A stretch of DNA of 64,000 bases, taken from Ruminococcus flavefaciens (GTDB lineage Bacteria > Bacillota > Clostridia > Oscillospirales > Ruminococcaceae). Location: the NCBI GenBank assembly GCA_902777125.1, contig CACYSQ010000013.1, forward strand, positions 1 through 64,000, written 5' to 3'. The notes under the pieces were generated by a model. It had not been told where the DNA came from. It saw only the letters and a program-made list of their open reading frames with translations, and did not search any database. Shown here piece by piece: positions 19,426 through 24,611 of this stretch (position 1 is the stretch's first letter; every line of letters begins with the position of its first letter). Position numbers and translations under genes: made by a program.

Positions 19426-20490
19426 ATGATACAAACAGAAGAAATGGAGTTCGCTCCGAGGGTCATCGCCCCGGAGAATATCCCCGAGGACGGTGATATC
19501 GAGGTCACTCTGCGTCCACAGACACTCCACGATTACATCGGTCAGGAGAAGGTCAAGGAGAAGATCGCTATCTACATCGAGGCTGCAAAACGCCGCGGCG
19601 AACCGCTCGACCACGTTCTGCTATATGGTCCTCCCGGTCTCGGAAAGACCACGCTCTCCGCGATAATCGCCCATGAGCTCGGTGTAAACCTCCGCGTTAC
19701 GACGGGTCCGGCTATCGAGAAGCCCGGCGACCTTGTTTCGCTGCTGACCAGCCTCAACGACAATGACGTCCTCTTTATCGACGAGATACACCGCCTTTCA
19801 CGCGCGGTCGAGGAGATACTCTACCCCGCCCTCGAGGACAGGGTCATAGATATTATTATAGGTAAGGGTCCCTCCGCACGTTCTATCCGCATGGATCTGA
19901 AGCCGTTCACGCTCATCGGTGCAACTACCCGTGCGGGACAGCTCTCAGCACCTCTCCGCGACCGTTTCGGCGTTATCGAGAGACTTGAGCTCTACTCGAA
20001 GGAGAACCTCACGGACATCGTCCGCAGAAGTGCCATGATACTCGGTATCCCCTGCGAGACAGACGGCGCTGCGGAAATCGCCGGACGCGCAAGAGGTACG
20101 CCGCGTATCGCGAACCGTCTCCTGAAAAGAGTGCGCGATTTTGCCGATGTTATGGGAAACGGTCAGATAACGCAGGAGATAGCTTCGATAGCGCTGAGCC
20201 GTCTTGAGATAGACCAGCTCGGTCTCGACAGCCTCGACAGGCGTATGCTCGACATGATAATCAAGGGCTACGGCGGAGGTCCGGTCGGACTGGAGACGCT
20301 TGCGGCTGCTATCGGCGAGGAATCTGTCACCCTCGAGGACGTCTGCGAGCCTTTCCTCATGCAGCTCGGCTTTCTCGGAAGAACTCCCCGCGGCAGACAG
20401 GCGACAAGGCTTGCCTACGAGCATCTGGGCTATACGCCCCCGGAACAGGCAGCTTCTCCTGACACGGGACAGCTCTCTTTCAATGCGTAA
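19426..20490 (+). CDS. ruvB: Holliday junction helicase motor RuvB
   Basis: The 354-residue AAA+ ATPase drives branch migration as a hexamer on RuvA-bound junctions. Motifs: Walker [10 protein letters not shown], Walker B F-I-D-E-I-H, sensor G-A-T-T-R-A-G, Arg finger region L-R-D-R-F-G and the winged-helix C-terminus ([16 protein letters not shown]). Ribosome binding site AAGGGAG. Family I repeats lie on both sides, so it may be transcribed both by read-through and separately. Confidence 0.98.
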
Positions 20491-20690: not shown

Positions 20691-21212
20691 ATGATTAAGA
20701 AGTTCAACGTCCGGCACAACACCGGCAGGGTCACACCGCCGGAGACCGGGAAAATGATAAACGGACAGGCTCTCGGTGAGATCTCGCAGATGCGATACGG
20801 TCTCTGCCGCATGAGCTTCAACGGCTGCGAGGTCATAGCCGTTCACAATGCGCTGGTATATCTGGGCATACCGCGTCCGGCAGCGGAAATAGCTGCCTAT
20901 ATGGAACGCTTCCGTATGCTTTTCGGGATATTCGGGTGCAGTCCCTATAAAATAGGAAAAGCCCTCGCTCACTTCGGCGCGTCGTTTCAGCGCAGGAAGC
21001 TCCCGGAGGATGCGGAGGCTTTCATCATGACCTTCTGGACGAAGCGTCCGTTCCTTTCGTCGATACACACGGTTTTCTGTACCCGTGAGAAAAACGGCGT
21101 CAGGGTCTACAACGTCTACAACAACTGCGCCGAGGCAAGGCTTTACAAAGATACAGCGTCCTTTGCCGGAAAGCGCCGGCCTATAGCGGTATATGCCGTA
21201 TTCAATGCGTAA
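20691..21212 (+). CDS. Papain-like (C39-type) fold protein, putative
   Basis: A 173-residue protein with a likely cysteine-peptidase-like layout: Cys46 in N-G-C-E-V-I-A-V-H-N-A-L at the start of a helix, His126 in S-S-I-H-T-V-F and Asn in Y-N-V-Y-N-N. That is the Cys/His/Asn order of C39-type folds. No transporter or substrate is nearby, and there is no signal peptide. The upstream ribosome binding site is weak. It could be an inactive relative. The family is named with low certainty. Confidence 0.5.
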   Translation: MIKKFNVRHNTGRVTPPETGKMINGQALGEISQMRYGLCRMSFNGCEVIAVHNALVYLGIPRPAAEIAAYMERFRMLFGIFGCSPYKIGKALAHFGASFQRRKLPEDAEAFIMTFWTKRPFLSSIHTVFCTREKNGVRVYNVYNNCAEARLYKDTASFAGKRRPIAVYAVFNA

Positions 21213-21286: not shown

Positions 21287-22642
21287 ATGTCAAGATTATT
21301 CGGTACCGACAGCGCAAAGGGTGCTGTCATAGCCGACCTTTCGTGCGAGATCGCCATGCAGGCGGGAAGAGCTGCCGCGGCTGTTCTCTCGGGAGGTCAG
21401 GAAAAACGTTCAAAAATAATAATCGCCAAGGACGGAAGGCTTTCCTCCGATATCCTTGAAGCCGCGATCTGCGCGGGTATATGCTCTGCCGGGGCTGATG
21501 CCGAGGGCATCGGTACTGTTCCGGCTCCTGCGGCGGCAATGCTCACGAAAAAGCGTGACGCTGACGCCTGCATTATGATAGCGGCTGCCGGAACTGACGC
21601 CAATTCCAGCGGTATACGCATCTTTTCCCCCGAGGGCAAGCGCTTTTCCGCCGATACCGAGGCTGAAATGGAACGCCTTGTCTTCGGTATAGGCGCCGGC
21701 TCGGTCCTCGCGAGACCCTCCGCTGAAATGGGACGTATGCTCCGTTATGACGGCGCTGAGGACGATTACATCGGATACATAAGCGAGCTTATCCCGACCT
21801 GCCTTTCGGGAATGAAGGTCGCCCTGAGTTGTTCCGGAAGCTGCACCTCCGTGACCGCTGAGAGGCTGTTTATCGAGCTCGGTGCGGAGGTCATGATACT
21901 CCCCGAGCCGGAAGGACAATTCGATTCCGATATCGAAATGGCTTCCACCAATCTCGAAAGGCTCATGGAATTCGTCCCGGCAAACGGCTGCGACTGCGGT
22001 TTTGACTTCGACAACGAGGGCTTCGGCTGTCTTGCTGTGGACGAGACCGGCAAGCTCACCGACGGTGACTCCATGCTCGCCATTTTCGCGAAGGCATACA
22101 AGGAAATGGCGAAGCTCCGCGGAAATTCTATCGTGGTGAACTACATGAGCGGACTCGGACTGCTCAATTTTGCCCGTGACAACGGCATAAACGTCCTTAC
22201 CTCCGGGGCAGGCGACAGGTATATCCTCGACCGCATGGTGGAGGAGGAATGCTCCCTCGGCGGCGAGAGGAGCGGTCATATCATCTTCCTCGATGACTGT
22301 CCCGTCGGTGACGGACAGCTCTGCGGTGCGAGACTGCTTGAGATAATGAAAGTGACCGGAAAGAAGCTCAGCGAGCTTGCCGGCGAGATGCAGAAGCTCC
22401 CGCAGATCGTCCTCAACGTCAGGATCGACCCGCGGAAGCGCGAAATATGGAAAAACGACAGCGTCATCACCGACCTCATAAAAGAGAGCTCGGAAAGGCT
22501 CGGAGAAAGCGGCAGGGTCATCGTAAGGGAGGCTTACGGCGCTGACCCGTTCATTCGCGTGGTCATTGAGGGCAGCGATTTCGGCGCTATAAACGAAATG
22601 GCTATGGATATCGCCCGGACTATCAAGTCAAGATGCGCTTGA
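21287..22642 (+). CDS. Degenerate GlmM-like phosphohexomutase homologue, probably non-catalytic
   Basis: Its 451 residues align end to end with GlmM (F-G-T-D start, four domains), but the catalytic loops are changed. The phospho-Ser loop (normally S-A-S-H-N-P) reads A-A-A-G-T-D, with Ala101 for Ser. The metal loop D-G-D-G-D-R reads D242-N-E-G-F-G. The phosphate loop R-P-S-G-T-E-P reads R414-E-A-Y-G-A-D-P. Only the sugar-binding loop G-G-E-R-S-G-H (325-331) is intact. The gene is full-length, uses ordinary codons and has a good ribosome binding site (CAGGAGAAC), so it looks maintained. A regulatory or sugar-phosphate-sensing pseudoenzyme is the inferred role. The methyltransferase follows 33 bases downstream. 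Confidence 0.8.
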   Translation: MSRLFGTDSAKGAVIADLSCEIAMQAGRAAAAVLSGGQEKRSKIIIAKDGRLSSDILEAAICAGICSAGADAEGIGTVPAPAAAMLTKKRDADACIMIAAAGTDANSSGIRIFSPEGKRFSADTEAEMERLVFGIGAGSVLARPSAEMGRMLRYDGAEDDYIGYISELIPTCLSGMKVALSCSGSCTSVTAERLFIELGAEVMILPEPEGQFDSDIEMASTNLERLMEFVPANGCDCGFDFDNEGFGCLAVDETGKLTDGDSMLAIFAKAYKEMAKLRGNSIVVNYMSGLGLLNFARDNGINVLTSGAGDRYILDRMVEEECSLGGERSGHIIFLDDCPVGDGQLCGARLLEIMKVTGKKLSELAGEMQKLPQIVLNVRIDPRKREIWKNDSVITDLIKESSERLGESGRVIVREAYGADPFIRVVIEGSDFGAINEMAMDIARTIKSRCA

Positions 22643-23762: not shown

Positions 23763-24611
23763 ATGAAAAATATAATTGAAATAGAAAACCTGCATTTCAG
23801 CTATCCCGCGGAGGAGGACACCGAGCCTGCGGAGGTGCTGAAAGGCATCGACCTCAGCATAGGCGAGGGCGAACTTGTCGCGATACTGGGACATAACGGT
23901 TCCGGCAAGTCCACGCTTGCCAAGCACATAAACGCCATTCTCCTCCCAACAGAGGGAAAGGTCACGGTCAACGGCATCGACACCGCTGACGAGGAAAAGC
24001 TCTTTGAGCTGCGTCAGTGCGCCGGAATGGTCTTTCAGAACCCCGATAATCAGATAGTTTCCTCCATAGTCGAGGAGGACGTTGCATTTGCACTGGAGAA
24101 TTTAGGCGTACCCTACGAGGAGATGCGCCGGCGCGTTGACGATGCGCTGAAAGCCGTCGGAATGTACGAATACAGGCTGCATTCACCGGCACAGCTCTCC
24201 GGCGGACAGAAGCAGAGGATAGCCATTGCCGGCATCATTGCCATGCAGCCAAAGTGCATAATCCTCGATGAGCCCACCGCGATGCTCGACCCGCAGGGGC
24301 GCCGTGAGGTCCTTGCGACAGTTCAGCGCATGAACCGTGAGCAGGGCGTTACTATCGTCCTCATCACGCACTATATGGACGAGGCGGCACAGTGCGGCCG
24401 CGTGGTCGTCATCGACAAGGGCAGTCTCGCCATGGACGGCACTCCCCGGGAGGTATTCTCGCAGGTCGAACGCATAAAGGCTCTCGGACTTGACGTTCCG
24501 CAGGCAGCAGAGCTTGCCTATGAGCTGCGGAAAGCCGGCTGCGATATCCCGGAGGGCATACTCACCGAGGAGGAATGCGCGGAGGCGCTGCTCGCTTTGA
24601 TAAATAATTAG
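23763..24611 (+). CDS. ecfA1: Energy-coupling factor transporter ATPase EcfA1
   Basis: The 282-residue ABC ATPase of the ECF vitamin transporter module has Walker [11 protein letters not shown]-loop V-F-Q-N-P-D-N-Q, signature L-S-G-G-Q-K-Q-R and Walker [13 protein letters not shown]. With EcfA2 and EcfT it forms the shared module that powers several substrate-binding S components located elsewhere. No S component is present here. The start lacks a clear ribosome binding site because a repeat abuts it. Confidence 0.95.

Follow-up and report, generated by a model that had tools for sequence, protein, structure and literature searches.

A glmM homologue lacking key catalytic residues at the ancestral glmM locus of Ruminococcus flavefaciens, probably retained for a non-catalytic role

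A degraded glmM homologue and its neighbourhood

The window examined here, a 64,000-nucleotide stretch at the start of a contig from Ruminococcus flavefaciens, carries a glmM homologue at 21287..22642 on the forward strand, as are all features given below with coordinates of this form. The gene starts with ATG and encodes 451 amino acids in an uninterrupted frame that aligns end to end with the glmM profile TIGR01455 (profile positions 1-441 of 442), so the first-pass annotation was right to describe a full-length GlmM homologue with a complete reading frame. Its score of 366.9 bits falls below the curated equivalog cut-off of that profile (447.55 bits); for comparison, the canonical copy in the same genome reaches 533.8 bits, an intact orthologue (L079) 560.9, an orthologue of the GPRG type described below (L092) 489.8 and the nearest relative (L067) 357.4. 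Pfam models for domains I and III exceed their cut-offs, while those for domains II (23.8 against 29.3) and IV (22.4 against 23.1) lie slightly under, in the expected places. Of six relatives taken from a named collection, five bear the title Ruminococcus (R. flavefaciens in two cases) and the sixth is an Oscillospiraceae bacterium.

Members of the GlmM family are mutases that work by a phosphoserine/Mg mechanism. In the window protein the active-site loop (residues 99-103; 21581..21595) reads A-A-A-G-T in place of S-A-S-H-N, the phospho-serine having become Ala101. The metal loop (residues 240-247; 22004..22027) reads D-F-D-N-E-G-F-G in place of A-F-D-G-D-A-D-R, with two of its three aspartates lost, and the phosphate loop (residues 414-421; 22526..22549) reads R-E-A-Y-G-A-D-P in place of R-x-S-G-T-E-P, retaining Arg414, the Gly and the Pro. 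Only the sugar loop (residues 325-331; 22259..22279) still fits the pattern of an active mutase, G-G-E-x-S-G-H, since its GGERSGH differs solely by Gln328 to Arg. The residues named in the first-pass annotation (Ala101, D-N-E-G-F, E-A-Y-G-A-D and GGERSGH) had all been read correctly. Scored against a signature of 16 residues, which we chose from the four GlmM loops, the protein has lost eight: S101A, H102G, N103T, D244E, D246F, R247G, S416A and T419A. Given that the phospho-serine is missing from all 23 aligned sequences of the subclade to which the window gene belongs (21 have Ala and two Thr), its loss here is more than chance. Judged by its sequence, mutase activity by the known mechanism is beyond the reach of this protein, because phospho-serine, metal-loop and phosphate-loop residues are all affected.

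The usual gene order in the genus is ruvA, an sseB-like gene, ruvB, a gene for a 173-amino acid protein, the glmM homologue, a methyltransferase gene and genes for ABC ATPases. In the window, the upstream marker of the locus is ruvB (19426..20490) and the downstream marker a SAM-dependent methyltransferase gene (PF10672; 22676..23539), followed by two ABC-transporter ATPase genes, the first of which (23763..24611) is a further marker of conserved order, and a CbiQ-type gene. The SseB-like gene (PF07179/PF14581; 18529-19260) lies between ruvA and ruvB, as it does in most of the genus loci read. Of the 30 glmM loci with the highest scores we inspected 29, with 1.5-kb flanks; six are from the genus and 23 from other families of the order. 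Among the latter, ruvB adjoins glmM in 16, the methyltransferase being present too in ten of these, and neither is found in seven; all 23 encode canonical proteins with 16 of 16 signature residues. Since the ruvB/methyltransferase order is common to other families with a canonical glmM, the window gene occupies the ancestral glmM position.

The usual upstream neighbour, the 173-amino acid protein (20691..21212), looks papain-like by eye, with a conserved NGCE...HTVFC...YN pattern and the conserved blocks MINGQ, RYG, MSFNGCE, HTVFC and YN, and gave no sequence match in Pfam, NCBIfam or the PDB. In the 90 loci measured, the median gap between the end of its gene and the glmM homologue is about 30 bases, and in six of them the two genes overlap by 4-8 bases. 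An obligate partnership between the two is not supported, as the small protein has no match (E 1e-4) at seven of 112 loci, one of which (L178) starts at the glmM homologue and lacks upstream DNA. An apparent 603-amino acid fusion in L153 proved to be merely an open upstream frame, the small neighbour matching that DNA in a different frame.

Two copies of glmM across the genus

The source genome contains three phosphohexomutases: a 571-amino acid phosphoglucomutase-like protein (contig C3), a canonical glmM (contig C23) and the window gene. The C23 copy is referred to below as A, and the one in the window as B. The search for a canonical glmM elsewhere in the genome, recommended by the first-pass annotation, is answered by A, which scores 533.5 bits and has the four motifs intact (SASHNP, DGDADR, GGEQSGH and RESGTEP). 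All 16 signature residues are present in 42 of 42 aligned A sequences, a subset of the A copies found in which genome G078 is counted twice, and in each of the 23 outgroup sequences.

Identity between A-type proteins and the window protein is low, at about 31-34%. On the tree, all 108 B sequences fall on one side of a branch with support of 100, and all 42 A sequences are likewise set apart with support of 98; the A group shares with one outgroup sequence from another family (L032) a branch 0.96 changes per column long, and L032 is 62% identical to the A of the source genome. Neighbourhoods of A differ between genomes, with a gene of family c7 often after it. A was apparently acquired from outside the lineage by transfer; an old duplication is a possible origin, but A is closer to the foreign L032 than to B. 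Genome G073, whose assembly is listed with 6% contamination, carries two A-type copies (L224 and L225, one of them 70% identical to the A of the source genome) together with a degraded B.

A census of 125 genomes of the genus, with a threshold of at least 660 bits for A, found A in 109 and not in 16, and B whole or in pieces in 120. The B alignment holds 113 sequences of at least 400 amino acids in uninterrupted frames; left aside were G025 (in-frame stop), G077 and G158 (split frames), G155 and G066 (contig ends) and G051 and G036 (split over contigs). Ten genomes without an initial B match were rechecked at the locus. In five the B frame is long but very diverged, running up to a contig edge in one of them, and two have B over two contigs; in G040 the contig stops after ruvB, and in G151 neither ruvB nor the methyltransferase was found. 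There was no B match in G067 and G163. In G015 (95% complete; locus L265) B is cleanly deleted, with ruvB, the 173-amino acid protein and the methyltransferase consecutive and nothing found by tblastn. The very diverged copies L261-L264 and L271, missed at E 1e-40, are open frames of 416-443 codons between ruvB and the methyltransferase.

The state of B tracks the presence of A. All 16 signature residues are kept in 11 of the 113 B sequences, which come from nine genomes without A and two (G045 and G017) with it; put otherwise, B is intact in nine of the 12 genomes where it is full-length and A was not found, against two of 101 with A. These two exceptions defeat the stricter claim that B is degraded in every genome with A. 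Three genomes (G005, G037 and G074; completeness 90, 73 and 70%) have a degraded full-length B and no A or other glmM found, and there A is probably missing for want of assembled sequence. Two further genomes in which A was not found have incomplete copies of B: a partial one of the GPRG type at a contig end in G066, and a split one in G158 whose three visible loops are canonical.

Losses from the signature are distributed by subclade, to which we have given names of our own. The 23 GPRG sequences lack 0-4 residues, the 40 GK sequences 6-10, the 23 SAR sequences, including the window, 6-11, and the GAD group 11-14 in ten sequences and 14-15 in five very diverged ones; three basal sequences lack 4-6. 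Parsimony on a single FastTree topology, taken without support checks, has the phospho-serine changing eight times, His102 12 times and the metal triad twice. The question of whether the changed residues are conserved among orthologues, raised in the first-pass annotation, receives a divided answer: the serine is uniformly absent from the window's subclade, but present in 81 of the 113 B sequences overall, so that orthologues with the catalytic Ser, which had been named as evidence against a pseudoenzyme, do exist at greater distance and not inside the subclade.

The GPRG sequences (L086, L087, L090-L092, L095-L102, L105-L109, L114, L117, L119, L124 and L130) hold 12-16 of the 16 residues though A accompanies nearly all of them, and displacement is therefore not always fatal to catalysis. 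They also provide a case for regarding B as an enzyme of changed chemistry or substrate instead of a pseudoenzyme: serine and metal triad are retained in 23 of 23, while the sugar and phosphate loops are altered (GGEPNGH, mostly SGKEP), and in the GK subclade the metal loop has a new consensus ending in E-R-C. Altered specificity is likely within GPRG, and B of this type may be an active mutase. As an account of B at large we consider the idea unlikely, because the window's subclade has neither the phospho-serine nor a complete metal triad and the loops vary between neighbouring subclades; we know of no mutase of the superfamily that works without phospho-serine and metal triad.

Selection on B and its non-catalytic constants

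Rates of substitution were compared in 33 pairs of close relatives, hand-picked from the tree; some synonymous distances are near or above 1 and therefore rough. For B, dN/dS is 0.034-0.079 in the four intact pairs and 0.044-0.147 in the 29 non-intact pairs, six of which are nearly canonical GPRG pairs; the window gene and L067, at 84% identity, give 0.099. In 31 readable pairs ruvB gives 0-0.052, lower than B in 29 and marginally higher in two (L147/L149 and L079/L084). Catalytically dead B is, on these estimates, under purifying selection that is strong, yet weaker than that on ruvB. The first-pass annotation had recommended such an estimation of dN/dS, and its description of a conserved pseudoenzyme is supported, in that the dN/dS range of non-intact pairs, the open frames and the subclade-wide loss of serine all speak against decay. 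With catalytic residues lost and the remainder under purifying selection, the window gene would rank as a pseudoenzyme.

It might be argued that B is instead a relic in decay, redundant and under relaxed selection, and only by luck not yet broken. B does have a higher dN/dS than ruvB in 29 of 31 pairs; it has been cleanly lost from G015, carries an in-frame stop in G025 and is split in G077 and G158; and the GAD subclade is widely divergent, some members being without the N-terminal GTDG region, which is gone in all four of the five most diverged copies whose N-terminus is visible. At least in G015 and the three genomes with broken frames, the job of B is dispensable. Against this stand 113 unbroken frames of at least 400 amino acids despite deeply diverged subclades, the low dN/dS, and residues such as Trp388 and Tyr161 that are invariant in all 113 sequences while catalytic residues disappear. 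On the strength of dN/dS, open frames and invariant non-catalytic residues we reject a decaying pseudogene, and think a relic improbable.

The columns conserved in at least 90% of the 104 non-intact B sequences include many structural glycines and, prominently, a block in domain 4 made up of E386-x-W388-K389-N390 and T395, which in the window forms part of the stretch E-I-W-K-N-D-S-V-I-T (residues 386-395; 22442..22471). Across B, Trp388 is present in 113 of 113 sequences, Lys389 in 111, Asn390 in 109 and the complete E-x-W-K-N in 107; Tyr161, Glu415 and Glu428 are likewise invariant. R/K-E-I-W-K-N-D can be read even in the five most diverged copies, which lack 14-15 of the 16 signature residues. 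At the Trp388 place, 42 of 42 A sequences have Ala; of the 23 outgroup sequences, 22 have Leu, Val, Phe, Ile or Tyr and one has Trp, and a claim that the residue is absent from outgroups fails on it. Among nine intact B sequences, Trp388 and Lys389 are found in nine, Asn390 in seven and Glu386 and Thr395 in six each. As all nine intact sequences have it, the Trp would be older than the loss of catalysis, the rest of the block being more uniform in dead copies. Because outgroups carry hydrophobic residues here, Trp388 may be structural and no binding site.

A probably displaced enzyme and its possible function

We propose that the window gene is the ancestral glmM of its lineage in its original chromosomal place, and that A, arriving from another lineage, performs the phosphoglucosamine mutase reaction. 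Position, lineage and motifs are observed; transfer and activity we infer from them. B, presumably freed from catalysis, lost its phospho-serine, metal and phosphate-loop residues independently in several sublineages, and yet its frame has stayed open and full-length, with purifying selection acting on it. Because it has been so kept with its catalytic residues lost, a non-catalytic role is most likely, and it would be one already carried by the intact enzyme, probably that of binding another protein by way of a surface to which the domain-4 stretch around Trp388 belongs. On balance we consider it probable that A catalyses while B, the displaced ancestral copy, survives as a non-catalytic and probably partner-binding protein. 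We hold more tentatively, as something quite possible rather than probable, that the ancestral GlmM of the genus had this second function before displacement, located at least partly on the domain-4 surface around Trp388, and that after the arrival of A selection ended on the active site and continued on the moonlighting surface.

The pocket of the window's nearest relatives might still bind an amino-sugar phosphate, given the kept sugar loop and Arg414. The sugar loop reads GGE-R/K-SGH in all six of the nearest sequences, for which binding of hexose or hexosamine phosphate is plausible, and the inactive vertebrate phosphohexomutase PGM5 is described in an excerpt of PMC7761743 as binding glucose-1-phosphate. 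In GAD, the sugar-loop Glu has become Asp and the His Arg in 15 of 15 sequences, and Arg414 has become His in eight of 15; these changes make sugar-phosphate binding unlikely as the shared function of B.

Two candidate partners can be weighed. B could form heterodimers with A and so tune its activity, as might be imagined from the GlmM dimer seen in crystals (PMC8573169, as excerpted) and from the co-occurrence of full-length B and A in 101 genomes; at the low identity between A and the window protein given above a shared interface is unlikely, and we think this distinctly improbable.

The other candidate is CdaA, on which B might act either as a decoy, the role suggested in the first-pass annotation, or as a regulator devoted to cyclic-di-AMP synthesis. 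The parts of the two reports considered here describe inhibition by GlmM of CdaA in Bacillus subtilis (PMC8573169) and of the cyclase DacA in Staphylococcus aureus (PMC6368335). A single cdaA is present in the source genome, with a YbbR-type cdaR after it. In Bacilli a cdaA-cdaR-glmM cluster is typical; the cdaA-cdaR locus here (contig C8, 12 kb read) contains no glmM. The B. subtilis complex depends on CdaA Arg126 and on the acidic GlmM contacts D151, E154 and D195, and R126A abolishes binding while alanine variants of GlmM have little effect (PMC8573169, as excerpted). The three GlmM places are Arg153, Gly156 and Glu197 in the window protein and are variable across B and outgroup sequences, which is a weak test because the alanine variants mattered little; A has Asp at the D151 place in 42 of 42 sequences and does not keep the other two. 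The CdaA side gives what should be the stronger test, and there the CdaA of the source genome carries Thr where B. subtilis has Arg126, a place located by counting along from residues that the paper names. With the partner arginine replaced, contact residues changed and cdaA-cdaR separate from glmM, the decoy idea is not supported, and we regard an action of B on CdaA as very improbable. This locus (L214), with a CdaA lacking the GlmM-binding Arg and no glmM near it, may mean that the GlmM-CdaA link is absent altogether from the source genome.

Moonlighting by essential enzymes is hard to study as the catalytic role cannot be removed. In Ruminococcus, evolution appears to have removed catalysis repeatedly, so that whatever stays selected marks non-catalytic function, and B offers intact, partly degraded and fully degraded orthologues at one locus in one genus, with the conserved stretch around Trp388 as a handle for finding the partner. 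If the moonlighting reading is true, a single gene position would show a natural progression that leads from active enzyme to pure moonlighter. Annotation and metabolic models call for caution too, as the gene at the usual place of glmM is probably not the phosphoglucosamine mutase here.

Among open-licence PMC papers searched by title, we found none that describes a pseudoenzyme form of bacterial GlmM or such a displacement. Compared with GlmM itself (TIGR01455; solved as 3pdk, 7ojr and 6gyz), the window protein has full-length homology, the gene position of canonical glmM in related families, the sugar loop and the phosphate-loop Arg, and differs in its sub-cut-off score and the loss of the phospho-serine, two metal-loop Asp and the phosphate-loop Ser and Thr. 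The CdaA-inhibiting GlmM of B. subtilis, as presented in the excerpt of PMC8573169, resembles what we suppose for B in having a non-catalytic role exercised by protein binding; its contact residues and the partner Arg126 are, however, unconserved here, and there is no common gene cluster. Inactive phosphohexomutases are already known in animals. PGM5 (aciculin), the vertebrate pseudo-phosphoglucomutase, occurs beside the closely related active PGM1, from which it differs in active-site loops (excerpt of PMC7761743). The bacterial B differs from it in being the original glmM, displaced by a copy from another lineage, with serine and metal ligands lost in several sublineages.
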